From NCBI GenBank assembly GCA_905221105.1, contig CAJNBW010000004.1, positions 87,433 through 151,432 on the forward strand: a stretch of DNA of 64,000 bases. The letters are read 5' to 3'. This DNA comes from a bacterium. Lineage in GTDB: Bacteria; Bacillota; Bacilli; Lactobacillales; Streptococcaceae. Position 1 is the first letter of the stretch. Every line of letters starts with the position of its first letter. Shown here in pieces: positions 4,007 through 23,357 of this stretch. The position numbers and the translations under genes were made by a program. Under the pieces are notes generated by a model. It saw nothing but the letters and a program-made list of their open reading frames with translations, did not search any database and had not been told where the DNA came from.

Positions 4007-4029
4007 TTCTATTTCCCATTCTATTTTTC

Positions 4030-4188: not shown

Positions 4189-4205
4189 ATTTTTTTCTTT
4201 TACTT

Positions 4206-4236
4206 ATTATACCATATTCACATAAAAAAACGAACA
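4206..4236 (-). promoter_or_regulatory. purR promoter with PurBox-like site
   Basis: -10 TATAAT at 4206-4211. About 18 nt upstream, the -35 region is TTCGTT, which is part of AAAAACGAACATT when read on the plus strand (CGAAC core 4231-4235). This matches the PurBox consensus AWWWCCGAACWWT at 12 of 13 positions. Confidence 0.5.
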
Positions 4237-4257
4237 TTCTTATCCTAAAAAATGCTC
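4224..4257 (-). terminator. Terminator after yhaM
   Basis: Stem GAGCATT/AATGTTC (4251-4257 / 4232-4238, one G:U pair) followed by GTTTTTTT on the minus strand. The descending arm coincides with the PurBox-like site. Confidence 0.55.
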
Positions 4258-4272
4258 ATTTTTCTTAAATTA

Positions 4273-6460: not shown

Positions 6461-6461
6461 C

Positions 6462-7124
6462 CTACCTCCTGTCCTTGCTATGCAGAACGACCACATAGCC
6501 ATCTGGGCAAGTCACCGAAACTTCCCTATCTATATATTCGTTAGAAGCGTAAACTTTCTTAAAGAAAAAATTCTCCTCTGTCAACTCATACTTGGCACCA
6601 AGAATGGTCAACTGGCTATCCCGAACTGGCATAAAGGCTAGGTAGTCATAGTCTGAACGTGGTTCAAGTTGACTGGTCCCTTCTGGACAATAAGTAATCA
6701 AGTTTTGTCCATCCTCAATCTCTATCTGACGCATATAGGGCGCCAATTTAGGATTGCTAGGCAGAAAGACATTGGCCAACATATGGTCAATACGACCACC
6801 CAGAGCACCGAAAATAGTGACCTGAGCTTGAGGGCTTTTTTCAAAAATCGTTAAGAGTGCTAGTTCCAGATCCGTATCATCTTTTTCTGGCTGAGCTTGG
6901 ACAAAGTGCTGGGCATGTTTTTGAATCAACTGACGTTCTTCTACAGTCACAGAATCAAAATCCCCAACTGCAAGAGCAAGAGGAAGTTTTTCCTCTAGTA
7001 CCCAAAGCGAGCCTCGATCCACACCGACAAAGCAATCAAAGTCTGTCCGATAATGACCACGGTCTCCACCAGCAAAAACTGCAACTCTAGTCCAGTTGAT
7101 TTCGGAGAGCTTGCACTCGTTCAT
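6462..7124 (-). CDS. Thiamine pyrophosphokinase
   Basis: Converts thiamine to thiamine diphosphate with ATP. 220 residues from the ATG at 7124, chosen because AGGGAG lies seven bases upstream; upstream ATGs at 7130 and 7145 are possible but lack a better site. Motifs: DRGS (about 36-39) and GDFDS (54-58), then GALGGRIDH, which together mark the family. The start overlaps the 3' end of rpe by 38 bp, indicating coupled translation. Confidence 0.9.
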   Translation of the reverse strand: MNECKLSEINWTRVAVFAGGDRGHYRTDFDCFVGVDRGSLWVLEEKLPLALAVGDFDSVTVEERQLIQKHAQHFVQAQPEKDDTDLELALLTIFEKSPQAQVTIFGALGGRIDHMLANVFLPSNPKLAPYMRQIEIEDGQNLITYCPEGTSQLEPRSDYDYLAFMPVRDSQLTILGAKYELTEENFFFKKVYASNEYIDREVSVTCPDGYVVVLHSKDRR

Positions 7125-7743
7125 TGACATCTCCCTTAAAGACATAGGATCCTGCTACAAAAACTGTTGCGCCAGCTTCTTTAGCCTGAGCAATGGTCTG
7201 ATTATCGATCCCACCATCGACTTCGACTTCAAAGTTCAAGCCTTTTTTCTCACGAAGGGCAACCAACTCACGAACCTTATCCATGGTTTCAGGTAGAAAA
7301 GCTTGCCCACCGAAGCCAGGGTTCACTGTCATGACTAAGACTTGGTCAACTAGGTGAAGCACGTGTTTAATGGCTTCAACAGGCGTACCAGGATTGATAA
7401 CCACAGAAGGTTTGACACCGAACGAACGAATCTTTTGAAGAGCGCCATGGATATGGGGCGTTGCTTCCACATGGATGCTGATGATATCCGCACCTGCACG
7501 CGCAAAGTCTTCTAGATGATGCTCTGGATTCGCCACCATCAAGTGACAGTCAAAGACCATCTTACTATGTGGTCGAAGAGCTTCGACTACACCTGCACCA
7601 AAACTGATTTGTGGTACAAAGTGACCATCCATGATATCGATATGGGCATACTCTGCCCCAGTTGCTTCTAGGCGTTTGATTTCACGTTCAAAGTTGGCAT
7701 AATCTGCTGCCAGAATTGACGGAGCAATCTTGTATTGAGACAT
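7087..7743 (-). CDS. rpe: Ribulose-phosphate 3-epimerase
   Basis: Pentose phosphate enzyme interconverting ribulose-5-P and xylulose-5-P. 218 residues from the ATG at 7743 with AAGGAG eight bases upstream; a longer in-frame reading up to 8157 is an artefact of an open frame opposite rsgA. TIM-barrel metal ligands are visible in HIDIMDGHFVP (H34, D36, H41), with DGGI near the C-terminus as the phosphate loop. Starts 10 bp after the rsgA stop. Confidence 0.95.
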   Translation of the reverse strand: MSQYKIAPSILAADYANFEREIKRLEATGAEYAHIDIMDGHFVPQISFGAGVVEALRPHSKMVFDCHLMVANPEHHLEDFARAGADIISIHVEATPHIHGALQKIRSFGVKPSVVINPGTPVEAIKHVLHLVDQVLVMTVNPGFGGQAFLPETMDKVRELVALREKKGLNFEVEVDGGIDNQTIAQAKEAGATVFVAGSYVFKGDVNERVQALRNQLD

Positions 7744-7753
7744 AGGTTTCTCC

Positions 7754-8632
7754 TTATTTTGGAATTTTTTTGCTGACTTTTTTATAGGTTTCTCTGCGAT
7801 TTTCAATTTCGCTGAGGAATTGCAGGTAGTTGTCAAAACGGAAGGTTGCAATGGTACCCTCTTCAATAGCTGGCTTGACAGCACACGATGGCTCATGAGT
7901 ATGGGTACAGCTACGAAACTTACAATCTCGGCTGACACTAGCAAGCTCTGGAAAGGCCTGATTGAGGGCTTCTGCCGTTGACACTTCATAATCCAGTGAT
8001 GAAAAGCCTGGTGTATCTGCGATTTTACCCCCATTGAGGTTGTAAAAACTAACAGCTCTAGTAGTATGACGGCCACGACCCAGACTGTCTGAGATTTCTC
8101 CTGTTTCAAGATTGAGGTCCGGTGCGATTTTATTGAGAAGGGTTGATTTACCAACACCTGTCTGCCCCATAAAGACCGTCACTTTTCCTGTTAACAAAGG
8201 CAAAAGTTCTTCTTTACTGGTCACAAAGTCATAGCCAATAGCACCATAGGTCTGCTGGTAAAAATCCAGTTCTGACCGATCTTCCAACAAATCCATCTTG
8301 GAAATATAGATGATAGGGTGGATACCCTTGTGCTCCAGAAGAACCAAGAAACGATCCAGCAAGTTGCTGTTGAAGTCCGGTTCCTTGACGGACATGATTA
8401 CCACAGCTTGATCGATATTGACAATAGGCGGACGAACCAAGCCGTTTTTCCGTTCGTGAATTTTGAGGATATAACCTTCTGAATTTTCCTCCGCAGAAAA
8501 GTCTACCCAATCCCCAACGTAAGGGGTATGGCCTTTTTTACGGAAATTCCCACGCGCGCGCGTCTGATAAACCTGACCATCACTCTCCACATAGTAGAAC
8601 CCTGCCAAGGCTTTAATGATTTGTCCCTGCAT
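7754..8632 (-). CDS. rsgA: Ribosome small subunit biogenesis GTPase RsgA
   Basis: Circularly permuted GTPase that checks maturation of the 30S subunit. 292 residues from the ATG at 8632, one base after the rsmA stop. Order: OB-fold (1-65), then NKxD-like SKMD (111-114), P-loop GQTGVGKS (156-163), DTPG (206-209), and a zinc site C237, C242, H244 or H246, C250. This permuted G4-G1-G3 order is diagnostic. It pairs with rsmA, another 30S maturation factor, in the same cluster. Confidence 0.95.
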
Positions 8633-8633
8633 C

Positions 8634-9506
8634 TTAGAGTCCTTGTCCTTTAAGCGCATCAGCTAGGCTGGCAAACTCTGCCAAGCTGAGAGCTTCACCA
8701 CGCACAGATGGAGATAAGCCTGCCTGATCCAATGCCTTGATCAATTTATCCTTGACTTCTTCAGTCTTGCCAAAGTAACCTGTCATATTGTTCCACAAGG
8801 TCTTGCGACGATGGGTGAAACTAGCCTTGGAAACCTTAAAGAAGAAATTCTCATCTTCCACTGCTACGGCTGGCTCTGGACGACGCACCATTTTCAAAAT
8901 GGCTGAGTCCACGTTTGGTGCTGGCACAAAGACCGTACGAGGCACGATAAAGGCAACCTTGGCGGTCATGTAATACTGAACCGCAATCGACAAGCTACCG
9001 TAAGCCTTGGTGTTAGGTTGGGCTGAGATACGATCCGCCACTTCTTTTTGCATCATGACCACAAACTCACTAAAAGGAATGCCACTCTCAATCAAGTGCA
9101 TGAGAATAGGCGTCGTGATGTAATAAGGCAAGTTGGCCACTACCTTGATTGGCAGGTCAGGATTTTTGAAATTCTGGATATGTTTCGCCAAATCAACCTT
9201 GAGAATGTCCTCGTTAACCACTGTCACATTATCAAAATCACGCAGGGTATCAGCTAAGATTGGTACCAAACGGTGGTCGATTTCAAAAGCCATGACTTGA
9301 GCCGCACGCTCAGCCAGAAACTCCGTCAAAGCACCAATACCTGGCCCAATTTCGATAACATTGACCTGGTCATCAATCTCAGCCGTATCCACGATTTTTT
9401 GAAGGATATTGGTATCCGTCAAGAAATTTTGCCCGAAGGACTTTTTAAAGGTAAAACCGTGACGCTCTAGCACTGCCTTGGTCACGCTATAATCTGCAAT
9501 TCTCAT
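8634..9506 (-). CDS. rsmA: 16S rRNA dimethyladenosine transferase RsmA (KsgA)
   Basis: Dimethylates the two adjacent adenines in the 3' terminal hairpin of 16S rRNA; loss gives kasugamycin resistance in characterised species. 290 residues. SAM loop EIGPGIGAL (about 52-60) and the catalytic NLPYYITTP motif (about 125) are intact, as is the N-terminal [11 protein letters not shown] at 9506. Confidence 0.96.
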
Positions 9507-9570
9507 CTATTCTCTTTTCTATTATCTGTTACTACTATTGTAACACATTCCCCTTACATTTGGGGTTTGC

Positions 9571-10137
9571 TTAGCTGTTCTCATAAGATTTCATAGCTTC
9601 TTCCACTTCTGCCAAGGTAACTCCAAACAACTCTAAGCGTTTGAGGAGTTGCTTGCCGTTGGAATAGCCAATACGAAGAGCCTCTCCTAGATATTCTCGT
9701 CGCTTACGGCTATCTGCTCCTGCTAGAAAACCAAGGCAAATCAAGTCGCTACGACTGATGTCAAATTGACTCTCATGTTCAAATTGCTCCGTCACCTGAG
9801 CTAGAGCCGTTTTCAGGTCTTCATAGCTGGCATGCTCAATCCCTAAAGACTGCCCCTTGGTCTTGGACTTAGGAACAGCTTCATCGCGTTTGAGGAAAGC
9901 ATGCTGAACTGTTGGAATGGCCGTCATAATCATGCGCCGAATCCGCTCCCCATTAAAATCTGGGTCTGTAAAGACAATGACTCCATGGCGTTGGTGTAGA
10001 CGCTGAATCCGCTCTATATCCTGGTCATTGATGGCAGAACCTCGAGTCTCATAAGTCTCTACCTCGAAATAACGTTTAAGATTTGCCGTATCATCGCGAC
10101 CTTCGACCACGATAACTTGTGAAATTTTTTCCTTCAT
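9571..10137 (-). CDS. rnmV: Ribonuclease M5 (5S rRNA maturase)
   Basis: Toprim-domain nuclease that trims 5S rRNA precursors. 188 residues. Toprim signature VVEGRDD (10-16) and FTDPDFNGE (about 56-64) provide the Glu and DxD metal ligands. Overlaps the tatD stop by one base, so the two are cotranscribed, the usual arrangement in Firmicutes. Confidence 0.95.
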   Translation of the reverse strand: MKEKISQVIVVEGRDDTANLKRYFEVETYETRGSAINDQDIERIQRLHQRHGVIVFTDPDFNGERIRRMIMTAIPTVQHAFLKRDEAVPKSKTKGQSLGIEHASYEDLKTALAQVTEQFEHESQFDISRSDLICLGFLAGADSRKRREYLGEALRIGYSNGKQLLKRLELFGVTLAEVEEAMKSYENS

Positions 10138-10910
10138 TACTTGCTATCCAATCCAAAAATGCGCTCTGCATTTGCAGTCGTTACCGCCGCTAGCTCTTCT
10201 GTCGTCATGCCACGCAAATCCGCGATAAAATCTACTACATAGCGAGTATAGGCTGTTTTGTTTTCACGACCACGTTTAGGAACAGGAGCCAAGTAGGGAG
10301 CATCCGTCTCCACCAAAATCTTGTCCAAAGGAAGTTCTCTAGCCGCCTCTTGGATATCGGTTACCTTCTTAAAAGTCACCACTCCTGAAAAGGAAATGAT
10401 CATACCAAGTGCGACAAACTTCTCTGCCCATTCAAGAGTTCCTGAGAAAGAATGCATGATGCCACCTCGAGGACCAACTCCCTCACTCTTGATAATCTCA
10501 TAGGTATCTTCCAGCGCATCACGGGTATGGACCACAAAAGGCAAATCCAAGTCCTTAGACAGCTGAATCTGACGGCGAAAAACCTGCTCCTGCACCTCTT
10601 TCGGCGCTGTCATCCAATGGTAGTCCAAACCAATCTCACCCAAGGCAACCACCTTGGAATGCTTGAGCTTATCAAGCAAGTAGGCTTCAATCTCCTCTGT
10701 ATAAGTCCCAGCTTCTGTAGGATGCCAACCAATAGTTGCGTAGAGTTGGTCATACTCATCCACCAACTCCAAAGCACGCTCAATCGTCGGTTTATCAAAA
10801 CCAACAATATTCATCTGTGTCACACCCATCTCAGCAGCCAAGGCAATTTCTTCTGCCTCACGACCTGCAAATTCTTCTACATTCAAATGTGTATGTGTAT
10901 CAAAAATCAT
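10137..10910 (-). CDS. tatD: TatD-family metal-dependent deoxyribonuclease
   Basis: 257 residues, TIM-barrel hydrolase. Metal ligands: HxH at H6/H8 (FDTHTHLN), GEIGLDY in the centre, then HTRD and ETDAPYL near the end. TatD proteins act on DNA ends in repair; the exact substrate here is inferred from the family. A TATAAT at 10938-10943 on the minus strand suggests its own promoter. Confidence 0.93.
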   Translation of the reverse strand: MIFDTHTHLNVEEFAGREAEEIALAAEMGVTQMNIVGFDKPTIERALELVDEYDQLYATIGWHPTEAGTYTEEIEAYLLDKLKHSKVVALGEIGLDYHWMTAPKEVQEQVFRRQIQLSKDLDLPFVVHTRDALEDTYEIIKSEGVGPRGGIMHSFSGTLEWAEKFVALGMIISFSGVVTFKKVTDIQEAARELPLDKILVETDAPYLAPVPKRGRENKTAYTRYVVDFIADLRGMTTEELAAVTTANAERIFGLDSK

Positions 10911-10944
10911 CTCTTCTAACCTCGTTTTCTATCTTCTATTATAC

Positions 10945-10987
10945 CAAAAAAGAGGAGGGGCACCCAATTTTTCGGTTTCCCTCCTCT
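10945..10987 (-). terminator. Terminator between the surface-protein gene and tatD
   Basis: Perfect 9-bp stem AGAGGAGGG/CCCTCCTCT (10951-10959 / 10979-10987) followed by TTTTT on the minus strand. It is about 330 bp downstream of the surface-protein stop, with a BOX element and no convincing gene in between. Confidence 0.8.
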
Positions 10988-11099
10988 CTTCCATAGAGAG
11001 CTATTCTGCTATCTTTTCTGGCTCGATATTGCCCATCTCCTGTCCCGCAAGTTAGAGACGAAAGAGATTGGCTATATTGATAGAATATCCCTATTCATC

Positions 11100-11207
11100 T
11101 AATACTCTTCGAAAATCAAATTCAAACCGTGTCAACGTCACCTTGCCGTACTCAAGTACAGCCTACGGCTAGTTTCCTAGTTTGCTCTTTGATTTTCATT
11201 GAGTATA
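11100..11207 (-). repeat. BOX element lacking boxB (A-C type)
   Basis: 108 bp. The boxC end (AATACTCTTCGAAAATC) is at the left and the boxA end (TTTGATTTTCATTGAGTATA) at the right, with no 45-bp boxB unit between. The rest of the 10911-11321 gap shows no gene I can support. Confidence 0.9.
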
Positions 11208-11321
11208 AAATATGTGATTATCTTGGGTTCTCACTTCTCTCACCCATCACTAGGATTGATGATTTCTCCAAATTCCCCTTATAATCTAACTTTAAGTAGA
11301 GAATATAACTTTCTAGCTGTC

Positions 11322-14300
11322 CTATTCTCTACGTCTAGCCTTTCTTCCTAGCAAAGCAAAACCACTGGTTGCCGCCACTAGACCAAGACTAGCAAGTGCT
11401 GCACTTGATGCTGAACCTGTGTTAGGTAATTGTTTGCCAGCAGGCGACTGGTAGGTAACATCTTGCATTGTTCCTGCAGTTGCTTGCGGTGCACTTGTTG
11501 CCTGAGGCGCAGCAGCATTAGGAGCCACCGGTTTCTTAGGAACTGTAACCATGACAATGGCTTGCACTCCAATCGTTTCTGCTTCCGTCACATCTTCCAC
11601 AGTTTTCGCATTTTCAATCTCTTTGAGAGCTGCTTGTTTTTCTGCTTCCACTCTTGCTAAAAGTTCTGCTTTTTCTTTATCAGAAAGCGGTGCACCATTG
11701 ATTTCATCCTGCTTGTCCTTGGCAGCTTTTTCAATGACATTTTTAGCTGATTCTTTTGCATTTGCTAATTGCTTAGAAGCTTGTGATTGAGCTGGGGTTT
11801 GTGAACCTGTGTGAGCTTGTCCGCCTGCCTGGCTACCACCGCCTGCATTTGCATTAGCATCTGAGCTTCCAGTATTACCTCCGTTATCTCCACCTGGTGT
11901 TGATTCTGGTTTTTGTTCTTGAGTTACAGATTCACCTTTTGCAGATTGTTGAACTGTATCTTTTCCTAGAATTGTCACTACTGAACCATCTGGGAATGTG
12001 ATTGTCGCTGTGCCATCTCCGGCTACATTGATTGTCGCTCCGTCTAATGCTGAACCATTTGCTTGTAAAATAGCAACCTTAACTTTTTCTTTTTCTTCAT
12101 CTGTTAAATGAGTTATATCTTTTACATCTACTCTTTGAGCAGGCGCTTTAACAGTTGATTTTTCAGCAGTTGGTTTAGTGCTATCTTGTGCTTTTGGATC
12201 TTGTGCTACCAATTGATTTCCTGGAATTGTAATAGCTGAACCATCTTTAAAGACGATTGTCGCTGTGCCATCTCCGGCTACTTCTACATTCACATCGCTT
12301 CCGAATCCATTTGCTTCTACTACAGCTTTTTTAACAGCTTCTTTTTCTGCATCTGTTAATCTTGTAGCCTCTACTACTTTTGTAGGGGTAGCTGGGATGA
12401 TTACTTTTGTCTTCTCTGCGATTGTTGGTTGCTCTTGTGTTGAAGTTTCCTCTTTTTGAACTACTAGACTTGTTCCTGGAATTGTATTTACTGAACCGTC
12501 TGAGTATGTCAATGTCGCTGTTCCATCTTTAGATACCTTAACAGCTGTCGCCGCTGGGTTGGCTGCTTGTACTTTAGCTGTTACTGCAGCTTGTTCCTCA
12601 GGTGTTAAGCTATGAGCATTTCCAACTTCTGTAGTTGTTGCTGGCACCACAGCTGGATTTTGCGCAGCTTGTGTTGTAACTTCATTTTCAGTATCTTTGG
12701 CTACTACTAGACTTGTTCCTGGAATTGTGTTTACTGAACCATCTGAGTATGTCAATGTCGCTGTTCCATCTTTAGATACCTTAACATCTGTCGCCGCTGG
12801 ATTTGCTTCTTTAACCTTAGCTGCTACTGTATCTTGCTCCGCCTGTGTCAAGTTGTGAGTATTTTCAACAGGTACAAAGTTGCCTGGAATTTGCGCTGGG
12901 TTCTTCTCTGCATCTGTCTGAACTTCTGGAGTTTCTTGTTTACTTCCTTTTTCAACAAGTTTATCCCCTGTTATTGTATCTACAGATTTATCTGGATAGG
13001 TGATGACTACTGTTCCATCAGGTCTTACTTCTACTGTAGTTCCTGCTGGGAAGTTATTCGCACCTTCAACTGCTTTTTTAACCGCAGCTTGTTCTTCAGG
13101 TGTTAATTTCGTAGTATTTCCTACTTGTGTTTTCCCTGGGATAACTGGCTCGGTTCTAGAAGCAATTGTTCCAGTTTCTTCTTTAGCTGGTGTCACTAAT
13201 TTATCTTTAGAAATAGTATCACTTGAACCGTCTTTGTATGTGATTACCGCTGTTCCATCTGGTTTTACTTCTACTGTTGTTCCATCTGGGAATGTGTTCG
13301 CACCTTCGATGTTTTGACGAACTTGTTCTCTTTCTTCATCTGAAAGTTTTGCTGGATTTTCCACTTCCACTTTGTTTTCAGGAACTTTCGGTTCGAATTT
13401 AGATGCAATAGAGCCCTCTGGTTGAACTTCATTTATCTTATGAATACCAGCTTCTTTCGCCGCATTGATTTCATCTTTAGATTGACCTTTGTTGATGTCT
13501 TCAATCGCTTTATCTTTGGCCTTATTGATTTCTTCGATAGCTTTTTGTTTCGCTTCGTCTGATAAATCTTTATTGTTCTTGATTTCGTCAATGCGTTTTT
13601 GAGCTTCTTCTAGTATCTCAGCTTTTGCTTTCGCTTTTTCTTCATCAAGGTTTGTTACATCTGGTTTCTTAACTTCTGTATCAGCTTTTGGATCATATTT
13701 TTCAATATTTTCTTTTGCTTGATCTGCAATTTGCTTAGCTGTTCCTGCTGATGATGCTTCGTCAATAGCTTTGTTAGCTTCATCTTTAGCTTTATTGATT
13801 GCTTCTTCAGCTTTTTGTTTTTGCTCTTCAGTTAAACCTGTATCCTTCTTGATTTCAGTGATTTTAGCTTTGGCAGCTTCTTCTACTTGTTTTTTAGCAT
13901 CTTCTTTCGCCTTAGCAAGATCGTTATCTTTATCAGCTGTGTCTAAGGAATCAACTACTTCAACCGGTACTTTCACAGTTACTTTGTTACCATCCGCTAG
14001 CGTTACTTCCACTTCTGCTTCTTTAGTTCCTGTTTCATTTGTAGTTGGTTTAGAAATAACTTTCGCTGTTACTCCATCAGCTAGTGCTAATTGTTTTAGG
14101 ATTTCTTCGTCAGTTAAGTCTTTACCTTTTTCTACAGTTACTTTTCCGGATACTAAAGCAGTTTGTAAGTCTAACTCTGGCTTGAAGACATTTGTTGATT
14201 GACCTTTAGCAGTTTGTGGATTATAAACATCTGCGATTGCTTTTTTGCCTTCTTCTGTCGCTTTCGCTATTTCTTCAGATGTTTTCGCATTATTAATCTT

Positions 14301-17300
14301 TTCTTCTGCAGCTTTCTTAACTTCATCTACTTTGGCTTTCAAGTCTTCTTTTTCTTTATCAGTTAGAGTTGTATCTCCTCCGATTTCACCTTTTTCCGTA
14401 TTAGCTGCGTCTGTTAAGTCAGCTTTTGCTTTTTCCTTATCAGTCGCTTTTCTTACAGGTACTTCGATTTCATCTTTTGATCCATCTGGATATGTAACTT
14501 CTACTACAACTACTTTCTTACCTGCATTCGCTCCTGTTCCATCCACGATTGCTCCGTCGTTTTTAACTTGTTTGTCTGTCGGTTGTGGTTGTCCTTCTGG
14601 TACTATTACTGCATCTGTAATTGCTTTTTTATCTGCTTCCGCTACTTTTTTGTCTTTAGATGGGTCTACGCTTACTGGTACTTCTCCTGCTGTAACTGTT
14701 GGAGTTGATTTATCCGCATCTGTTTGGTGCACTTCATCGATTGCTTTCTTACCTGCTTCTGTTGCTTTTGCTACTTCGTCAGTTGTTTGTGCTTTTTCGA
14801 TATTTGCTTCTTGAGCTTTCTTAACTTTATCAACTTCTGCTTTCTTATCTGCTTTTTGTTGATCTGTTAAGTTTTTGTCTGCTTCAATTTCTGCTTTTTC
14901 TTTGTTAGCTGCTTCTGTCAAGTCTGCTTTGGCTTTTTCTTTAGCTTTGTCTAACTCTGTTTGGTGCACTGCATCAATTGCTTTTTTACCGTCTTCTGTT
15001 GCTTTCGCTACTTCTTCTGGTGTTGTCGCTTTATCGATATTTGCTTCTTGTTCTTTCTTAACTTTATCAACTTCTGCTTTCTTATCTGCTTTTTGTTGAT
15101 CTGTTAAGTCTTTATCTGCTTCAATCTCTGCTTTTTCTTTGTTAGCTGCTTCTGTTAAGTCTGCTTTGGCTTTTTCTTTAGCTTTATCTAATGCTTTTTC
15201 TGCTTCAGTTTTCGCTTCTACAGTCTTAGATGCAGGAAGTTCATTTTGTGATTTATCAGAATAAGTTACTGTTACTTTTCCTGTACTGTCTACTGAAATT
15301 TGATCATCAGTTAAGTTTGTGTTTGCTTTCTTAACGGCTGCTTTAACAGCTGCTTTTTCATCTTCTGATAAATTAGACACATCATTAACTTTTACTTTTT
15401 CTGGATCATTTAGTGGAGATTTTGCAGCATCAGTTCCTTCTACTGGAACGTCAACTGTTTTTTCTACACCGTTGCGTGTTACTGTTACTGGTACGACTTT
15501 CTTACCATCTTTTTCAGCAATAGTTCCGTATTTTACTGTATCAGTATCTTTAAGTGCTTCTCCGTTCGCTGTTACTTTTTCTTTTACTTTCGCTTGGTCT
15601 TCTGCTGTTAAGCTTTCTCCTGCTACTGGTACTTTTGAAATTTTAGCTGGTTTTGTTTCATCTTTTACAGCTAATGTTAACTCTTCCGCTTTCTTAGTTA
15701 CTTCTACATTGATTGTTTTTGATACACCATCACGTGTTACTATTACTGGTACAACTTTCTTACCATCTTTTTCTGTAATAGTTCCGTACGTTACTGTATC
15801 AGTAGCTTTAAGTGCTTCTCCGTTTGCTCTTACTTTAGCTTTTACTGCATCTTTATCAGCTTCAGGTAATTCTGCTCCTACTGTAGGTTCTACAGAGATT
15901 TCCGCTGCTTCTGTCACTGCTAAAGTGAAGTCTTCTGCTTTACCTGATAAAGCTAAACGTGCTTGTTGTAATTTATCTAGAGCTTCATCTACTTGTGGTT
16001 GAGTAGCATCTTTCTTAGCATACACTTCTTGAGCTTTTGCTAAAGCATCATCGTAAGCTTTTTTCTTAGCAGCATCTGTCTCTTTAGCATAAGCTGGTGA
16101 TTTTTTAACTGCATCGTCTTTGTTTAAATCAATTTCTGCTTTTAGGGCATCTTTCGATACAGGTACAGCAACATCTTGTCCTGTTAACTCTTTAATTGCT
16201 TTTGCTAGATTATCAATTAAAGTAGCTACTTCTGATGTACCTACAGCGTTTTCTGGTGCAGCTGTATTTTTATCAGCTACTTTTGAAGCTGCGTCTTTTG
16301 CTTTATCAAAAGCAGTTTTCTTATCTTGAGGAACATTAGGATTAGTATATTTATCAGAAGCTTTTACTTTTTCAGCTTCTGCTACTAATTTTTGTAGAGA
16401 ATCCATCTTAGAATCTAATCCTTGAGCAATAGAAACAATATTATCTACTTCACTCTCATCAGATGCATTGTCTACTTTTGCTTTCAATTCATCTTTTTGA
16501 GCTTTATTTAAATGTGGTAACTCTTCAATTGTTTGTTTTGCTTTTCCACGAGTAGCTTGCGCTTTAGCATCATTTAAGATGGTGTCTAATTGATCTTTTG
16601 ATTTAGCTTGATCAATTTGTTTCTTATATTCCTCTTTTTCAGCTTCTGTTAATCCTGGAATTTGATCAATTTTTTCTTTATAAGCTTCTTTTAATTTTTC
16701 AGCTTCTTCTTGAGCTTTTTGAGCTTCATTTTGAGATTTTTGCTTTTCAGCTTCTTCTAAAACTTTCTCTACCTCTGCTACAGTAGTTTTCCCATCAATT
16801 TGTGTTTTGTATTCATCAGCTGTTGGATTTTTTAGAGAATCTTTAATTTGATCAATTTTTTCTTTTGTAGATTTTTTAGCATTTTCTAAGTTTTTAGCAT
16901 CTGCTTGTTGACCAATCTTATCAAGTAATTCTTTTGTATAATCAGCAGCTTGAGTTCCAGTTCCATTACCATTTGCTGGATCTTCAATACCTTGGCTATC
17001 TACTTGTTTTCTTAACGCTTCTTTTTCAGCTTCTGTTAAATACTTAGCTGAATTGATTTTATCTTTTACCTGACGTTTTTTAGCTTCAATCGCTTTTTCA
17101 TTTTCTGAATTTTTAGCAATTGCTGCATTAACAACATTATTTATATCATCTTGAGTTGTTTTTCCAGTTAATTGATTTTTATAGTACTCTTTTTCTTTTG
17201 GTGATAAATACGTTAAATTATCAATAGCTTGTTTACCTTTTTCAATAGCTTCAGCTGCACTGAATACTTTCGTAGGTTTTGCTTTGAATAAATCTGCTTT

Positions 17301-18821
17301 TGGAATAACTGTACCTGTTGGCTGTGAATTTCTAAGTATAGCAAATCCTTGTGTTCTAGGGTCATATTCTAAATTAGTTCCAACAAAATCTTGAGAAGTT
17401 TTTGAAGGATCGCCTACCGCAGTAATAACGTCATCATTATCTTCATTCTTAGTTGTTTTCATTCCATTTACTTGGAAGAATTTTTGTCTTGCACTTTCAA
17501 TATCGCTAGCCGTAATATTATTAATATTATCTACTGCATGTGGATTTTTTAAGTATTTATAATCTCCTACATGAGCTGGAGTTGTTTCAATATTATCGAT
17601 TTGTGGTTTTTCATAAACAAGTGATGTTCCAGGGATAACGTCTTGTGTTCCATCTCCATAAGTGATAGTTGCTGTTCCATCATCTGCAATACTGATACTA
17701 CTGTTTGCAGAAGCAGTACCATCATCCCCTTCTTTAACATTTTCTATAAATTTATTATGTGAATGTTCAGGAATGGCATCACTCGTTGTATCTTGGTTTT
17801 TCTCCCAGATTTTATTCTTTAATTGTGTTTTTTCTTCTGCTGTTAATTTAGCTGTATCTACTACTCCAATACGTTCTGGTAAGACAGGTTCGAACAATTC
17901 TTTATCTTGGTATAACACAGGAATTTCAGTTGTTACTACTTTAAAATGACGTAATTGTTGTAATGCACGTCCTACTTTAACCCCTGCACCAAAATCTAAT
18001 GTTCTTCTACCATTTTTTAGCGTTGGATCCGCTACTTTATATTTGGCAGTAATTGTAACTCTGTCATTTCTTGCTAAATCCCAGTCAGAGTAAATACTCT
18101 TAGTGTTAGTTCGGAAACTCTCGAAGATACCTTGATCTGATGGACTATCAGAAATTTGTGTACCTATTCTGTGACTAAACATTCCTGCCATATCACCTCG
18201 GAATGTTTTTCCTGACTCTTGAGTAGTATCATTATAACGTTCCCATTTTGTATCATCTCCAAGCCCCATTGAATCTACTTGGTCTTTAGTTTGATAACGT
18301 GAACCTACTGAGTTTGTAAAAGAAACCCATGGAGCATCTGCACTCCAGCTTTTCATTACACGGTCAGTCGTACCAGTTTGTAAACGAATTTCTGAAGGCT
18401 CTTGAGCTCCTACTGGTGTTGTAAACCAATAATCCGGACGTGAACCACCATAGTTAGCAACATAATTTGAAGCTCCAAAGCCACCATTATATTTATAGGT
18501 TACTGTTACATAAGGATTTGTCTTGCTGTAACTTGACCAATCAACATCTACTACAATCTCTCTATCAACATTAATACTATCATGTACAGCAATCGCATCT
18601 GCATCATAAGGAGAGTCCCCTCTATTTGCATATAAAGTTACGACACCTTTGTCATTTCTTGTCGTTACCATCGCAGCGTCTGCTGTGTTGATACCACTCA
18701 ACATCGTAAACTGTGCCCCAATCAAACATGACGCTGCTCCAAAGCTAAACTTTCTAATCGAAAATTTTTCCACACGCTGCCACATCTGCTTAGAGCGTTT
18801 CTGAGTTCTCTTGTACTTCAT
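11322..18821 (-). CDS. Giant LPXTG-anchored repeat surface protein with YSIRK-type signal
   Basis: 2,499 residues. A YSIRK-type signal peptide (FSIRKFSFGAASCLIG, about 20-35; cleavage near A50) precedes a unique N-terminal domain (about 51-310) rich in aromatic residues, the likely ligand-binding part. Then come helical GA/DUF1542-like modules (about 520-810), a FIVAR-like segment (about 810-960), two ~90-residue repeats with EKDGKKVVPV (about 960-1135), two 79-residue DUF1542-like repeats (about 1215-1372), more charged helices, and about six ~80-residue modules carrying DGTATLTYSDGS/IPG motifs (about 1800-2290). The C-terminus is a Gly/Ser/Gln linker, a last helical module and LPNTG (2465-2469), hydrophobic helix and RRRE tail. 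Sortase A would attach it to peptidoglycan. Adhesion is inferred from architecture, not shown. Expression is probably variable through the poly-G promoter. Confidence 0.9.
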   Translation of the reverse strand: MKYKRTQKRSKQMWQRVEKFSIRKFSFGAASCLIGAQFTMLSGINTADAAMVTTRNDKGVVTLYANRGDSPYDADAIAVHDSINVDREIVVDVDWSSYSKTNPYVTVTYKYNGGFGASNYVANYGGSRPDYWFTTPVGAQEPSEIRLQTGTTDRVMKSWSADAPWVSFTNSVGSRYQTKDQVDSMGLGDDTKWERYNDTTQESGKTFRGDMAGMFSHRIGTQISDSPSDQGIFESFRTNTKSIYSDWDLARNDRVTITAKYKVADPTLKNGRRTLDFGAGVKVGRALQQLRHFKVVTTEIPVLYQDKELFEPVLPERIGVVDTAKLTAEEKTQLKNKIWEKNQDTTSDAIPEHSHNKFIENVKEGDDGTASANSSISIADDGTATITYGDGTQDVIPGTSLVYEKPQIDNIETTPAHVGDYKYLKNPHAVDNINNITASDIESARQKFFQVNGMKTTKNEDNDDVITAVGDPSKTSQDFVGTNLEYDPRTQGFAILRNSQPTGTVIPKADLFKAKPTKVFSAAEAIEKGKQAIDNLTYLSPKEKEYYKNQLTGKTTQDDINNVVNAAIAKNSENEKAIEAKKRQVKDKINSAKYLTEAEKEALRKQVDSQGIEDPANGNGTGTQAADYTKELLDKIGQQADAKNLENAKKSTKEKIDQIKDSLKNPTADEYKTQIDGKTTVAEVEKVLEEAEKQKSQNEAQKAQEEAEKLKEAYKEKIDQIPGLTEAEKEEYKKQIDQAKSKDQLDTILNDAKAQATRGKAKQTIEELPHLNKAQKDELKAKVDNASDESEVDNIVSIAQGLDSKMDSLQKLVAEAEKVKASDKYTNPNVPQDKKTAFDKAKDAASKVADKNTAAPENAVGTSEVATLIDNLAKAIKELTGQDVAVPVSKDALKAEIDLNKDDAVKKSPAYAKETDAAKKKAYDDALAKAQEVYAKKDATQPQVDEALDKLQQARLALSGKAEDFTLAVTEAAEISVEPTVGAELPEADKDAVKAKVRANGEALKATDTVTYGTITEKDGKKVVPVIVTRDGVSKTINVEVTKKAEELTLAVKDETKPAKISKVPVAGESLTAEDQAKVKEKVTANGEALKDTDTVKYGTIAEKDGKKVVPVTVTRNGVEKTVDVPVEGTDAAKSPLNDPEKVKVNDVSNLSEDEKAAVKAAVKKANTNLTDDQISVDSTGKVTVTYSDKSQNELPASKTVEAKTEAEKALDKAKEKAKADLTEAANKEKAEIEADKDLTDQQKADKKAEVDKVKKEQEANIDKATTPEEVAKATEDGKKAIDAVHQTELDKAKEKAKADLTEAANKEKAEIEADKNLTDQQKADKKAEVDKVKKAQEANIEKAQTTDEVAKATEAGKKAIDEVHQTDADKSTPTVTAGEVPVSVDPSKDKKVAEADKKAITDAVIVPEGQPQPTDKQVKNDGAIVDGTGANAGKKVVVVEVTYPDGSKDEIEVPVRKATDKEKAKADLTDAANTEKGEIGGDTTLTDKEKEDLKAKVDEVKKAAEEKINNAKTSEEIAKATEEGKKAIADVYNPQTAKGQSTNVFKPELDLQTALVSGKVTVEKGKDLTDEEILKQLALADGVTAKVISKPTTNETGTKEAEVEVTLADGNKVTVKVPVEVVDSLDTADKDNDLAKAKEDAKKQVEEAAKAKITEIKKDTGLTEEQKQKAEEAINKAKDEANKAIDEASSAGTAKQIADQAKENIEKYDPKADTEVKKPDVTNLDEEKAKAKAEILEEAQKRIDEIKNNKDLSDEAKQKAIEEINKAKDKAIEDINKGQSKDEINAAKEAGIHKINEVQPEGSIASKFEPKVPENKVEVENPAKLSDEEREQVRQNIEGANTFPDGTTVEVKPDGTAVITYKDGSSDTISKDKLVTPAKEETGTIASRTEPVIPGKTQVGNTTKLTPEEQAAVKKAVEGANNFPAGTTVEVRPDGTVVITYPDKSVDTITGDKLVEKGSKQETPEVQTDAEKNPAQIPGNFVPVENTHNLTQAEQDTVAAKVKEANPAATDVKVSKDGTATLTYSDGSVNTIPGTSLVVAKDTENEVTTQAAQNPAVVPATTTEVGNAHSLTPEEQAAVTAKVQAANPAATAVKVSKDGTATLTYSDGSVNTIPGTSLVVQKEETSTQEQPTIAEKTKVIIPATPTKVVEATRLTDAEKEAVKKAVVEANGFGSDVNVEVAGDGTATIVFKDGSAITIPGNQLVAQDPKAQDSTKPTAEKSTVKAPAQRVDVKDITHLTDEEKEKVKVAILQANGSALDGATINVAGDGTATITFPDGSVVTILGKDTVQQSAKGESVTQEQKPESTPGGDNGGNTGSSDANANAGGGSQAGGQAHTGSQTPAQSQASKQLANAKESAKNVIEKAAKDKQDEINGAPLSDKEKAELLARVEAEKQAALKEIENAKTVEDVTEAETIGVQAIVMVTVPKKPVAPNAAAPQATSAPQATAGTMQDVTYQSPAGKQLPNTGSASSAALASLGLVAATSGFALLGRKARRRE
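12461..12946 (-). repeat. Near-identical 243-bp tandem repeat inside the surface-protein gene
   Basis: The sequence starting CTACTAGACTTGTTCCTGGA at 12461 recurs at 12704, an 81-codon period. The first ~100 bp of the two copies are almost identical at the DNA level, so the copy number could change by recombination without frameshift. Confidence 0.75.
14721..15194 (-). repeat. 237-bp tandem repeat (DUF1542-like modules)
   Basis: TGTTTGGTGCAC begins at 14721 and at 14958, a 79-codon period. The two copies encode nearly the same helical module and differ at a few codons. Confidence 0.8.
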
Positions 18822-18929
18822 TCTTTGATCTCCATTTTTTATTTTTATTTCCTCTTATTCAAAAAATCAATAAACTATAATACTATTTTATTATAATATA
18901 TCCGCTTTAGGTAATAAGAATCTACGTAC

Positions 18930-18962
18930 ATTATAGCATGAAATCCCCCCCCCCCCCGTCCA
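18930..18962 (-). promoter_or_regulatory. Poly-G-spacer promoter of the surface-protein gene (candidate phase-variation switch)
   Basis: On the minus strand, TGGACG (complement of 18957-18962; 4 of 6 matches to TTGACA) precedes a run of 13 G (18945-18957), then ATTTCATGC and TATAAT (18930-18935). The spacer between these hexamers is 21 nt; about nine G would give the optimal 17 nt. The predicted start of transcription is ~100 nt before the ATG at 18821. A second TATAAT-like stretch lies further downstream, so an alternative promoter cannot be excluded. Confidence 0.6.
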
Positions 18963-19152
18963 CTTTTAGCCTAATTTTTACTTTAATTAAAATATATAAA
19001 AATTTAGCCTATTTGCTATTTTTTATTTATAATAAATTATACCGTTTTATGAATTTTAATTGGTTTTTATCTAAGAATATAACATAATCCATTTGAGGTA
19101 TCTCGAACCCTCCCCACCTCCACTTTATTCCGAACAAAACCAGAATCTCTGC

Positions 19153-19181
19153 TTGACGATGTCCCTTCAAAGCAGTATAAT
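19153..19181 (+). promoter_or_regulatory. kimA promoter
   Basis: TTGACG (19153-19158), 17-nt spacer, TATAAT (19176-19181). The leader to the ATG is only about 30 nt, leaving no room for a riboswitch. The remainder of 18963-19152 is AT-rich with no further feature seen. Confidence 0.75.
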
Positions 19182-19216
19182 AGCACTTATTGAAATTTTC
19201 AGAAAAGGGAAATACC

Positions 19217-21061
19217 ATGTTTACAAAATTAAAACAGACCTTTATCGGTCGTCCTCTTAAGTCCTTAACAGAAGGCGAGGGAGGTCTGCTGGGAAAAATG
19301 CAGGCCTTGGCCATGTTGTCAAGCGACGCTCTGTCTTCTATTGCCTATGGACCTGAGCAAGTAGTCCTCGTCTTGGCTAGTCTCTCTCCACTAGCTATAT
19401 GGTGGAGCCTTCCTATCGGCCTTTTTGTCCTCCTGCTCCTAGCCAGTCTGACCGTTTCCTACCGTCAAATCATCCACGCCTATCCTCAAGGAGGAGGGGC
19501 CTATATGGTTACTCGAGAAAATCTATCGCCCGAGCTAGGCTTGATTGCTGGGGGTAGTCTACTGGTTGACTACATGCTGACCGTAGCGGTATCGGTGTCA
19601 TCTGGAGCTGACGCTATCACAGCAGCTCTCCCTGCCCTCCACCCTTACAACCTCCACATCTCCATTTTTCTAGTTTGCTTGCTCATGCTCTTGAACTTAC
19701 GGGGGTTGAAAGAATCTGCCAGTTCACTGATGATTCCTGTCTATCTCTTTATCACCAGTACTGTCTTTCTCTTGCTCTATGGAATCTTTCAACTAATGAC
19801 AGGATCTCTCAGCTATCAGGCGACTTCTCCTATTGGACATGCTGTACCGAGTCTGTCTATCGTTCTCATTCTAAGAGCCTTTACCAGTGGTTCTGCCTCT
19901 CTGACAGGGGTTGAAGCTATTTCAAATGCCGTTCCCTTTTTCAAGGCTCCGAAAGAGAAGAATGCTGCTCAGACCTTGACCATCATGTCACTGATTCTAG
20001 GATTTCTTTTTGCAGGCATTACCTTCCTAAACTACTGGATGGGGATTATGCCTCAACACGGAGAAACCATCCTCTCACAGATGGCTCAAGGCATCCTTGG
20101 CAATTCCTTCTTAGGTCACCTTGGCTATTATATCTTCCAATTCTCCACAGCCTTGATTTTAGCCGTAGCTGCAAACACTGGTTTTTCAGCCTTCCCTATG
20201 CTGGCCTACAATATGGCTAAAAACAAGTACATGCCTCATCTCTTTATGGAAAAAGGAGACCGCCTAGGCTACTCTAATGGAATTTTAACTCTGGCTTTTG
20301 GGGCTATGATTCTTCTTCTCATTTTTAACGGCAATACCGAACGTTTGATTCCCCTTTATACTATCGGGGTCTTCGTTCCCTTCGCCCTATCTCAGACTGG
20401 GATGATTCGTCATTGGAAAAAGGAAAAAGGAGCAAACTTCTTAAAAACTGCTCTTGCTAATATCCTTGGGGCAATCATTTGCTACGCGATTGTGCTAATC
20501 TTGCTCTTCTTCCGTCTCAGTGATATCTGGCCTTTCTTCCCGATCATTCTCGTACTCACCCTACTTTTCTTAGCCATTCACAGTCATTACCAAAAAGTGG
20601 CCCAACAACTGCGACTCTATGAAGGAATCGAAAAACGTACCTACGATGGCAATCTTGTCCTCGTCCTCGTAGGAAATGTTACCAGAGTCAGCGTTGGAGC
20701 AATTAACTACGCCCAAAGTATCGGAGATGAAGTCCTAGCTATGCACATTTCTACTAAGGAAACAGCAGAAAAAGACCAGGAAATTCTCCAAGAATTTGCC
20801 GATTACTTCCCAACCATTACTCTGAAAAACATCAAGACCAGCTATCGCGATATCATCACGCCTACTGTCAAGTATGTCAAACGAATCTCTGAGGAAGCCC
20901 AGAAAAAGAACTATACAGTCACTGTCCTGGTACCCCAGTTTATCCCTAATAAACCTTGGCAAAATATCCTGCACAATCAGATGAGTCTCAAACTCAAATA
21001 CGCCCTTCGTTGGCACCAAGACGTCGTTGTAGCTAGCTACTCTTATCACTTAAAAGAATAA
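19217..21061 (+). CDS. kimA: KimA-type potassium importer (APC superfamily)
   Basis: 614 residues from the ATG at 19217, with AGGGA upstream; an in-frame ATG at 19190 lies too close to the promoter start. About 12 membrane helices in the first ~450 residues, with the KimA/YdaO-like segments MLSSDALSSIAYG, YPQGGGAYMV, GGSLLVDYMLTVAVS and LTGVEAISNAVP, followed by a cytoplasmic C-terminal domain ending VASYSYHLKE. The match to Bacillus KimA, as I recall it, runs the whole length. KimA imports K+ with protons and is inhibited by c-di-AMP in Bacillus; control here is inferred. Generic annotations would call it an amino acid permease. Divergent from the surface-protein gene and followed by a strong terminator. 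Confidence 0.85.
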   Translation: MFTKLKQTFIGRPLKSLTEGEGGLLGKMQALAMLSSDALSSIAYGPEQVVLVLASLSPLAIWWSLPIGLFVLLLLASLTVSYRQIIHAYPQGGGAYMVTRENLSPELGLIAGGSLLVDYMLTVAVSVSSGADAITAALPALHPYNLHISIFLVCLLMLLNLRGLKESASSLMIPVYLFITSTVFLLLYGIFQLMTGSLSYQATSPIGHAVPSLSIVLILRAFTSGSASLTGVEAISNAVPFFKAPKEKNAAQTLTIMSLILGFLFAGITFLNYWMGIMPQHGETILSQMAQGILGNSFLGHLGYYIFQFSTALILAVAANTGFSAFPMLAYNMAKNKYMPHLFMEKGDRLGYSNGILTLAFGAMILLLIFNGNTERLIPLYTIGVFVPFALSQTGMIRHWKKEKGANFLKTALANILGAIICYAIVLILLFFRLSDIWPFFPIILVLTLLFLAIHSHYQKVAQQLRLYEGIEKRTYDGNLVLVLVGNVTRVSVGAINYAQSIGDEVLAMHISTKETAEKDQEILQEFADYFPTITLKNIKTSYRDIITPTVKYVKRISEEAQKKNYTVTVLVPQFIPNKPWQNILHNQMSLKLKYALRWHQDVVVASYSYHLKE

Positions 21062-21064
21062 AGA

Positions 21065-21106
21065 AAAGGCCCTACCAGAAGCAAGAAGCTCTGGTAAGGC
21101 CTTTTT
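21065..21106 (+). terminator. Terminator of kimA
   Basis: Long stem built on AAGGCC...GGCCTT with an inner ACCAGA/TCTGGT helix and a TTTTT tail. Confidence 0.92.
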
Positions 21107-21126
21107 CTGAATCCAGCCACTATGCT

Positions 21127-21369
21127 TATACTCAATGAAAATCAAAGAGCAAACTAGGAAGCTAGCCGCAGGTTGCTCAAAGCACTGCTTTGAGGTTGTA
21201 GATGAAACTGACGAAGCCAGCTCAAAACACTGTTTTGAGGTTGCAGATAGAACTGACGAAGTCAGCTCAAAACACTGTTTTGAGGTTGCAGATAGAACTG
21301 ACGAAGTCAGTAACATATATACGGTAAGGCAACGCTGACGTGGTTTGAAGAGATTTTCGAAGAGTATTA
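21127..21369 (+). repeat. BOX element with three boxB units
   Basis: boxA start TATACTCAATGAAAATCAAA, three 45-bp boxB units (21175-21219, 21220-21264, 21265-21309; the last two nearly identical) and the boxC end AGAGATTTTCGAAGAGTATT. It fills most of the kimA to lipoprotein gap. Confidence 0.95.
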
Positions 21370-21392
21370 ACTGAAAAGCATGACTAGGAATA

Positions 21393-23357
21393 CTATTGAA
21401 TGTGGTTAGCTAAATCTTCCTGAGCTTTTTTATTTGACTCAGCTTTTTCTTTTAGCCACTTTTCATAGAGTTCTTGGTACTGTTTAGCAGTTACTGGCTC
21501 TTTTTGCAATTCAACATATTTATAGTTGTCTGCATTTCCCTTATGACCAACAAATGAGAATGGACCTGTAAACGGTACAGTCTTACGGAAGATTGGGTTA
21601 GCTCCACCACTTTGAACCGGTAGGAACAAGGCGCTATCTGTCAACCAAGCTTGGGCTTCAGCATATTTTTCATAGCGAGCCTGAGTATCAGTGATTTCAG
21701 CGTCGGCCTCATCCAAGAGTTTCTTATAGTCAGAAAGACCAATCTTGTCCTTGACTTCCTTGTCTTTTCCTTCAGACAAGCCCATGTTTTTCAACTGAGA
21801 ACCTGTTTCTGGATCAAGGATGGCTAGGTAAGTCTTAGGATCTGAGTAGTCTCCACCCCATCCTGAGATGTCGATATCATAGTCTTTTTGTTCTGCTGTA
21901 TCTGCAAAGTAGGTTGCCTGGTCTTTTTCATCTGGAGAAAGTTGGATAACGTCGATGACTACATTATCCTTACCAAGGGTTTCTTCTACTGTCTGTTTGA
22001 AAGATCCAGCCTGTTGCACATCTAATTTAGCAGTCTGGTCAACTGGCATATCCAAATGAATTGGGAAGGTTACTCCCTGTGCTTGCAGGCTTTCTTTGGC
22101 CTTCGCAAATTTCTCTTTGGCCTTGTCAGGGTTCAAGAAGGCTTGCTTACCATCGTTTAGGTTGATATTGGCCCAATCTTTACCGTAATTGACAATTTTT
22201 TCATTAACAATATCACCAAAGTTCTTATCACCAACTTGGACAAAGTTACTTGGTGTAACCGTGTTACGCAAGATACGGTCTGCTCCATCTTCACCATTTG
22301 TCTGAGCTGCATAAGCATGACGGTCAAAAGCAAAGTTGATAGCCTGACGGAAATCCTTATTTTGCATAGCTGCGCGTGCATCTGTCTTTTCCTTATCAGA
22401 CTGTTTCATAGTCTGCTTGTAGCTTTGGCGATTGACGTTGAAAAGATAGTAGAAGGTAACTGAGTTTTGTGGTGTATAGGTAATCTTGTCCTCATTTCCC
22501 TTCTTGAGTTCAGCAAAGACTGAACTTGTTGGGAAAATACGGCCGTCTGTATAGTTACCATCCAAGAATCCTCTTGCAATGCTGTCTTGGTCAGAACCAT
22601 CAAAGAATGAGAGTTTCACTTTCTCGATTTTAACATTATCCTTATCCCAGTAATTAGGGTTTTTATCAAATTCAATCAAAGATTTTGAGGTGAAGGACTT
22701 AAACAAGTAAGGACCATTTGACAAGATACTTGATGGTGTCACACTTCCAAAGTCATCTCCCTTAGACTTCAAGAAGGCTTCATTTACAGGACTAAGAATA
22801 CTTGCTGTTGTTTTAGAGTTCCAATAAGTTTCAGGTTGGATGAGGGTGTATTGGAGGGTGTAATCATCCACTGCCTTAACACCGACAGTTCCAAAATCAG
22901 ATGATTTCCCTTCAACATAATCTGCTAGCCCCTTGATAGAGTCTTGCACCAAGTACAAGTTCTCAGCTTTTTTATCAGCCGCATACTTAAGACCAGTCAC
23001 AAAGTCATGAGCCGTTACATCCGCATACTCTTCTCCTTCAGAAGTATACCACTTAGCCCCCTGACGGATTTTATAAGTGTAAGTCAAACCATCTTTTGAT
23101 ACCGTCCATGACTCAGCCATAGAGGGGATGAGATTGCCATACTGGTCATTTTCCAACAAGCCATCAATCAAGTTGGCTGTGATACTAGATGTAGAGTCTC
23201 GAGTAGAGGTAATGTAATCCAAGGTATCTGGGTTATTGACAAAGATATAAGAGTAAGTCTTATCTGCATTACTTGATTGAGATGACCCACACGCTGCTAA
23301 AGCTAGACCTGCTGTCAAAGCCATAGCTCCAAAAAGCATAACTTTTGATTTCTTCAT
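21393..23357 (-). CDS. Oligopeptide-binding lipoprotein, AmiA/AliA/AliB family (orphan)
   Basis: 654 residues, SBP_bac_5 fold. Lipoprotein signal with lipobox LALAAC (C23), so it sits on the outer face of the membrane. The body carries the LENDQYGN, YTYKIRQGAKW and GWGGDYSDP segments and the C-terminal KWLKEKAESNKKAQE tail shared by AmiA, AliA and AliB. It captures oligopeptides for the Ami permease, and in pneumococcus such paralogs also sense peptides. No permease or ATPase gene is adjacent, so it likely borrows AmiCDEF. From memory it is identical to none of the three named pneumococcal paralogs; AliC/AliD-type proteins of S. mitis are alternatives. ATG at 23357. Confidence 0.88.
   Translation of the reverse strand: MKKSKVMLFGAMALTAGLALAACGSSQSSNADKTYSYIFVNNPDTLDYITSTRDSTSSITANLIDGLLENDQYGNLIPSMAESWTVSKDGLTYTYKIRQGAKWYTSEGEEYADVTAHDFVTGLKYAADKKAENLYLVQDSIKGLADYVEGKSSDFGTVGVKAVDDYTLQYTLIQPETYWNSKTTASILSPVNEAFLKSKGDDFGSVTPSSILSNGPYLFKSFTSKSLIEFDKNPNYWDKDNVKIEKVKLSFFDGSDQDSIARGFLDGNYTDGRIFPTSSVFAELKKGNEDKITYTPQNSVTFYYLFNVNRQSYKQTMKQSDKEKTDARAAMQNKDFRQAINFAFDRHAYAAQTNGEDGADRILRNTVTPSNFVQVGDKNFGDIVNEKIVNYGKDWANINLNDGKQAFLNPDKAKEKFAKAKESLQAQGVTFPIHLDMPVDQTAKLDVQQAGSFKQTVEETLGKDNVVIDVIQLSPDEKDQATYFADTAEQKDYDIDISGWGGDYSDPKTYLAILDPETGSQLKNMGLSEGKDKEVKDKIGLSDYKKLLDEADAEITDTQARYEKYAEAQAWLTDSALFLPVQSGGANPIFRKTVPFTGPFSFVGHKGNADNYKYVELQKEPVTAKQYQELYEKWLKEKAESNKKAQEDLANHIQ

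Follow-up and report, generated by a model that had tools for sequence, protein, structure and literature searches.

Introduction

In Neisseria, the promoters of porA, fetA and opc contain a homopolymeric tract between the -10 and -35 boxes, which is thought to alter the binding of the sigma factor (PMC2791445). In Streptococcus pyogenes, a poly-T tract at Spy1336/R28-Spy1337 yields little or no transcript with 9T, abundant transcript with 10T and a higher level with 11T, and the authors of that study propose that the binding of the Spy1337 regulator is altered (PMC7098570). Slippage within a reading frame, i.e., a frameshift switch, has been described for the poly-C tract of mga in group A Streptococcus (PMC10330708) and for G tracts of the pili of Bifidobacterium breve; the latter source also mentions in passing that B. 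breve UCC2003 has G tracts in promoter spacers (PMC9187656). Finally, an invertible phase-variable promoter has been proposed for the surface protein SZO08560 of S. zooepidemicus (PMC2654543). What is said here of these papers is drawn from excerpts of their text.

Among the matches listed in the open-licence PMC literature, there was no description of Streptococcus promoters with a poly-G spacer. Simple sequence repeats in S. agalactiae were reportedly treated by Janulczyk and colleagues (J. Bacteriol. 2010). No poly-G spacer promoters are described in excerpts from a review of phase variation (PMC11868660), a study of pneumococcal carriage (PMC7351774) and a survey of homopolymers (PMC2831843).

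The DNA analyzed here, referred to as the window, is a streptococcal stretch of 64 kb, in which a first, sequence-only reading had proposed that a poly-G tract switches the promoter of a giant surface protein. That reading knew of no such switch for a streptococcal LPXTG protein, a claim that has to be narrowed: homopolymer control of a streptococcal surface-anchored protein is already known from R28, although the tract there is of T and the proposed mechanism is regulator binding (PMC7098570, from excerpts).

Results

Promoter anatomy at the G tract

Thirteen consecutive C on the forward strand of the window form a G13 tract on the minus strand, i.e., the coding strand of the downstream gene (Table 1). 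Read on that strand, the order of elements is TGGAC-G13-ATTTCATGCTATAAT, and the spacer from TGGACG to TATAAT measures 21 nt. The coordinates bear out what had been claimed for this promoter, including that nine G would give a spacer of 17 nt. By its sequence, the tract lies between a -35 box, which is weak (4/6), and a -10 box, in the manner of porA, opc and fetA. As the earlier reading had cautioned, the figure of 13 may itself be a consensus produced by the assembly.

Other G/C runs in the window are short: runs of length 4 occur 98 times, of length 5 19 times and of length 6 twice, and apart from the single run of 13 there is none longer than 6 in the 64 kb. Six overlapping G8 matches are found in the window, a number reached by none of 100 dinucleotide shuffles. 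On these run-length counts and shuffles, a chance origin of the tract is rejected.

Two further elements flank the tract. The A/T-rich block on its 5' side is possibly an UP element or a regulator site. The second TATAAT, on its 3' side and not noted in the earlier reading, has no TG extension, and no TTGA occurs between the tract and this box, which is possibly an alternative start independent of the tract.

Table 1. Positions of the features at the poly-G promoter, in window coordinates.
Feature	Position	Strand	Basis or remark
G13 tract of the coding strand, length-variable portion of the spacer	18945..18957	-	sequence; orthologs have 9-11 G
-35-like hexamer TGGACG	18957..18962	-	4/6 to TTGACA; shares the first G of the tract
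Extended -10 TGCTATAAT, with TATAAT at 18935-18930	18930..18938	-	TGnTATAAT kept in 9/9 aligned promoters
A/T-rich conserved block, directly 5' of the -35	18963..19006	-	nearly invariant in 9/9 aligned sequences
Second TATAAT, 3' of the tract	18890..18895	-	invariant in 9/9
Shine-Dalgarno-like GGAG of the adhesin gene	18830..18833	-	invariant in 9/9
Cell-wall adhesin-like protein, 2,499 aa	11322..18821	-	ORF; domain profile matches
Divergent amino-acid permease (AA_permease_2), from ATG	19217..21061	+	Pfam
Permease promoter-like TTGACG-17-TATAAT	19153-19181	+	tract not included; 196 nt away

The adhesin-like protein and its locus

The start codon at 18821, preceded by the GGAG at 18833-18830, opens a frame of 2,499 codons. 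The encoded protein contains a YSIRK signal (PF04650, 34.1 bits, cut-off 20), three GA modules, FIVAR, six DUF1542, Rib and an LPXTG anchor of the form LPNTG (PF00746, 30.4 bits, cut-off 20), as well as eight stretches with atypical Rib (aRib)/MiiA motifs (eight MiiA motifs by NCBIfam); the NCBIfam models TIGR01168 and TIGR01167 also exceed their cut-offs. The earlier description of the downstream gene as that of a 2,499-residue LPXTG surface protein is confirmed by this frame and these profiles. Residues 45-420 gave no sequence match in the PDB, and we use the name adhesin by analogy of domains. The R28-type arrangement, i.e., a poly-T tract with a surface-protein gene on one side and a divergently oriented regulator gene on the other, was not found at the window locus.

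In eight relatives, the gene order is that of a 654-aa extracellular solute-binding protein, whose copy in the window matches Pfam SBP_bac_5, followed by the tract promoter, the adhesin and TatD. The interval between the solute-binding protein and TatD (window 10137-23357; L136-L146) is subject to a swap: the eight relatives have the adhesin without the permease, three other genomes (G001, G100, G101) have no adhesin but the permease in its place, accompanied in G100 by additional genes, and the window locus carries both.

The same relatives have an almost identical promoter and signal peptide and a similar extreme C-terminus (L136-L143), while the adhesin N-termini that follow the signal peptide diverge (L136-L143; window 17500-18690). 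Sequence comparison thus suggests a mosaic exchange of the exposed part of the adhesin, and since the N-termini differ behind a like promoter and signal peptide, exchangeable exposed domains may share one switchable promoter. In one relative (L143, from G140; 3518-12606), the adhesin frame is split into two long frames of 713 and 2,316 aa.

The tract is constant in position and variable in length among relatives

A blastn search with the intergenic stretch against 284 Streptococcus genomes, one per species, matched 106 of them. The match spans the promoter and the adhesin start in eight genomes; in most of the others it covers the start of the permease only. In all eight orthologous promoters the tract is at the identical position, with 11, 9, 10, 10, 10, 10, 9 and 9 G, where homopolymer lengths in draft assemblies can be wrong by one. 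Thus the comparison of run length across strains that the earlier reading had named as a check came out in its favor, with 9-11 G in 8/8 orthologs against 13 in the window.

Counted from TGGACG, the spacer is 17 nt in three orthologs, 18 in four and 19 in one, compared with 21 in the window. These values span the optimal and the suboptimal, an optimum near 17 nt being established knowledge. Both TGGAC and TGnTATAAT are invariant in the nine sequences, i.e., the eight orthologs and the window. One pair, G228 and G229, shows no difference over 90 bases upstream and 200 downstream, and has tracts of 10 and 9 G, respectively. That is, the length varies while the flanks are conserved, as seen between species representatives rather than within one strain.

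When the 5' end of the gene was used as the query, 20 of the 284 genomes matched; these matches include the same eight loci and three more distant ones in two genomes (76-77% identity). Two of these are on separate contigs of G169, both of which stop exactly at the tract, with G10. The third, in G105, has TTGAC followed by an assembly gap, beyond which the sequence is rich in G. A tract or a G run is therefore in place at 11/11 loci with a clearly related gene start (matches of 28-50 nt left out).

A genus-wide set of G-run promoters

The pattern G8+, 5-14 nt, TATAAT was found in 29 of the 284 Streptococcus genomes, with no hit for its reversed control. A pattern with both boxes, namely TTGA, 2-14 nt, G8+, 0-6 nt, TANNAT, was found in 63/284 genomes, compared with 0/284 for its reversed control and 0/284 for its C8+ version (the reversed control of the latter gave 5 hits). 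The window promoter itself falls outside this pattern because exact TTGA and TANNAT are needed and the window has TGGACG. At the level of the order, the pattern matched 17 of the 295 genomes sampled: 10 of 46 from Streptococcus and 7 of 249 from elsewhere. Three hits came from the reversed control, all outside Streptococcus. These counts indicate that the class is concentrated in Streptococcus; the signal outside is weak, and the few other genomes may be chance or isolated cases.

The two-box pattern matched at least 118 distinct places, from which 115 distinct sequences were analyzed: G254:C54 and, because a non-G letter was required before the run, G200 were left out, sites that agreed in both their 35-nt flanks and their tract length were counted once (e.g., two in G002), and one longer site (L135), not among the 118, was added. 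With the best TAnnnT taken as the -10, the spacer is 17-20 nt in 90/115 sites; the other 25 have spacers of 8, 12, 13, 15 (five sites), 16 (seven), 21 (five), 22 (four) and 27 nt. Tracts range from 8 to 18 G, and the boxes are a full TTGACA at 77 sites and TATAAT at 55, with a TG extension at 15.

By similarity of the flanks (46 of 70 positions, a cut at which some clusters may still be kin), the 115 sites form 76 clusters, and the architecture is therefore not a single spreading repeat. Tract length differs in 15 of the 16 clusters that have more than one member. Across the 76 cluster medians, longer tracts go with a shorter non-G part of the spacer (Spearman rho -0.28, p 0.014), and the variance of the total spacer is below that of permuted data (p 0.007). 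Such compensation would be expected if the total spacer were under selection, although the effect is modest, if significant.

The most sites per genome are six (G085, G197), followed by five (G002, G251, G252, G263). Five loci start or end within poly-G at a contig end (L059, L061, L120, L256, L268), and in another an assembly gap falls at the tract (L257). Since draft assemblies can break at such tracts, the counts of these promoters are probably low.

G runs sampled without regard to promoters

Plain G10 runs occur in 94/284 genomes. From these we took a sample of 63 distinct G10+ runs, a part of all such runs, made up of those listed for genomes up to G072 (without G001, and with at most 14 per genome) and the first runs of four later genomes. 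Both boxes are present at 20 of the 63, as opposed to none when the boxes are read backwards and none when the tract is taken as C. Single boxes were counted as follows: the -35 at 22 runs and the -10 at 28, compared with 5 and 0 backwards, and with 1 and 5 for the C tract. Among the 43 runs without both boxes are some that lie in ORFs or at contig ends, as well as those of G067. Every sampled run placed within an ORF of more than 120 aa has its G on the coding strand of that ORF, and the lack of poly-C promoters may in part reflect a strand bias that G runs have in general.

Two other contexts were seen in this sample. Runs of 15 and 20 G (L093, L097) are flanked on either side by a similar TAATTATAGTTACG-like sequence, and the 14 nt before them contain no TTGA; perhaps they belong to a different type of regulated promoter. 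In G016, repeat copies (L071, L104, L106 and, more loosely, L105) have a context like CCTTTTTTTC-Gn-TAAAAATGTGTTTTGAAAA, with no TTGA box, and this repeat is perhaps a dispersed element that carries a G tract.

Genes downstream of the G-run promoters

The ORF downstream looks secreted or anchored at 80 of 110 sites, compared with 9 of 90 baseline ORFs (Fisher 2.8e-20), the baseline being ORFs of at least 150 aa from the window and three loci only, with the window adhesin included. The rule used is crude: a YSIRK or KxYKxGKxW motif or a hydrophobic N-terminus. The 80 comprise 25 YSIRK signals, two signals of the serine-rich-repeat type and 53 hydrophobic N-termini. Five of the 115 sites were omitted, as no ORF of at least 60 aa starts within 350 nt. 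Counted by protein cluster, 42/63 are secreted-like (1.8e-13).

The remaining 30 of the 110 sites precede ORFs that the rule calls not secreted, and these exceptions extend the class beyond surface proteins, although some of them are probably due to a wrong choice of start (e.g., L063, L156). Eight non-secreted proteins were scanned, among which there were one NAD-dependent epimerase, which we take to be galE-like, and one acetyltransferase; the other six, including the family MEQFNQEQLY, gave no Pfam family match. At cytoplasmic-looking targets (L192, L212, L214, L215, L222; L225, L227, L235), which comprise the MEQFNQEQLY family and an NAD-dependent epimerase, tract lengths vary over 8-11. 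It is possible that such targets represent phase-variable metabolic or cell-envelope functions.

Discussion

A probable length-variable promoter spacer

We hold it to be likely, from sequence comparison, that the tract is a length-variable part of the -35/-10 spacer, and that slippage resets the spacer and with it the transcription of the adhesin gene. The comparison supports this reading of the tract as a spacer switch, proposed earlier from the window: spacers in the orthologs center on 17-18 nt, and the class is genus-wide and mostly precedes surface-protein genes. From the architecture, its conservation, the variation in tract length between relatives and the genus-wide set, all of which are observed, we infer three further points: slippage takes place in cells as they grow, the level of transcription follows from the length of the spacer, and G13 corresponds to low expression.

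Slipped-strand replication would gain or lose G, such that the spacer would be 17 nt with G9, 18 with G10, 19 with G11 and 21 with G13. Promoters of the sigma-70 type favor spacers near 17 nt. With a spacer near 17-18 nt, RNA polymerase would read both boxes and the adhesin would be well made; with the 21-nt spacer of the window, contact with the -35 would be poor, and a low level of transcription would be left, driven by the extended -10. Based on the spacer preference and on the homopolymer switches of Neisseria, we would read G9-G10 as high and G13 as low, with G11 intermediate, and a clonal population would contain cells with differing amounts of adhesin. An extended -10 stands in partly for the -35. 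For this reason the effect is likely graded rather than all-or-none, and a long tract may lower the activity of the promoter without shutting it off. Thus, of the on/off switch first proposed, the spacer switch is supported, but the extended -10, which had been missed, makes weakening likelier than silencing.

Alternative explanations

A first alternative is that changes in the tract shift RNA polymerase, in distance or helical phase, relative to a regulator that sits on the A/T-rich block, as has been proposed for the R28 poly-T and for NadR at nadA. We regard this as unlikely. The block is nearly invariant, and altered regulator binding is what the S. pyogenes R28 authors favor (PMC7098570, in excerpt); on the other hand, the 115 sites fall into 76 context clusters, among which no common regulator site is apparent by eye. 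The spacer model and the regulator model are not mutually exclusive at this one promoter.

Alternatively, the tract may vary to no great effect, i.e., it may be hypervariable and nearly neutral, with expression set by the extended -10 TGCTATAAT, by the upstream A/T-rich element or by the second TATAAT. Conservation of the extended -10 and of the second TATAAT in 9/9 sequences would fit this explanation, as would a -35 of only 4/6. Yet TGGAC is equally invariant in 9/9, and a tract or G run is found at 8/8 close and 3/3 distant loci. Moreover, in the genus-wide class a TG extension is much rarer than a full TTGACA (15 and 77 of 115 sites), so that the same arrangement is found at promoters expected to depend on the -35. 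We thus consider a neutral tract quite improbable.

Least probable are the two explanations that remain. It is very doubtful that the tract acts through DNA or RNA structure (G-quadruplex, A-form DNA) or on the divergent permease: G13 could in principle form such structures and the permease is divergent, but a structural effect does not predict the preference for 17-20 nt spacers, and an effect on the permease is unlikely, given that it has its own TTGACG-17-TATAAT and that eight tract-bearing relatives have no permease there. A sequencing or assembly artefact, from poly-G of two-color chemistry or assembly slippage, is rejected as scarcely credible for the window tract, since the window and eight other assemblies, including the single-contig G140, concur on its position and on flanks with both boxes conserved, and since the reversed and poly-C patterns have 0/284 matches, even if such artefacts probably exist among the genomes, as indicated by G067, which has 65 G10 matches with one G18 run in a large-subunit rRNA gene (L092).

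Implications

Judging from the sequences, random slippage is probably a means by which these streptococci switch or adjust their surface coats. We further think it likely that Streptococcus has a repertoire of poly-G spacer switches that evolved many times, in front of genes for sortase-anchored, secreted and some cytoplasmic proteins. This would amount to a phasome of contingency loci like that of Neisseria, overlooked partly because draft assemblies sometimes break at the tracts, in which independent slippage would give many coat combinations per clone. If true, the proteins with which streptococci of the mouth and nasopharynx contact the tissue and antibodies of the host would vary stochastically, and the expression, adhesion and antigenicity of a laboratory stock could reflect its current tract length. 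Because the device is readable from sequence alone, the phase state of published genomes would then be predictable and testable; tract counts in reads would yield expression predictions from existing collections.

Comparison with known systems

For SZO08560, as for the window locus, the promoter of a streptococcal surface protein has been proposed to be phase-variable, but in SZO08560 the change is an inversion between inverted repeats and not slippage of a repeat (PMC2654543). With mga and the B. breve pili the window locus would share slipped-strand mispairing at a C or G tract and a connection to Gram-positive surface structures (PMC10330708, PMC9187656); in those two systems the tracts are within reading frames, whereas that of the window is in a promoter spacer. 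R28 is alike in that a homopolymer lies upstream of a streptococcal surface-anchored protein, and differs in that its tract is of T rather than G and its divergent gene encodes the regulator Spy1337 rather than a permease (PMC7098570). These likenesses and differences, as well as those that follow, are given as far as the excerpts of the cited papers extend. As in porA, opc and fetA of Neisseria meningitidis, an unstable homopolymer would occupy the promoter spacer of a surface protein (PMC2791445). Unlike in Neisseria, the host is Gram-positive, the protein is anchored by an LPXTG motif, the window promoter has an extended -10, and the genus-wide set consists of G on the coding strand only (63/284 genomes, compared with 0/284 for C).
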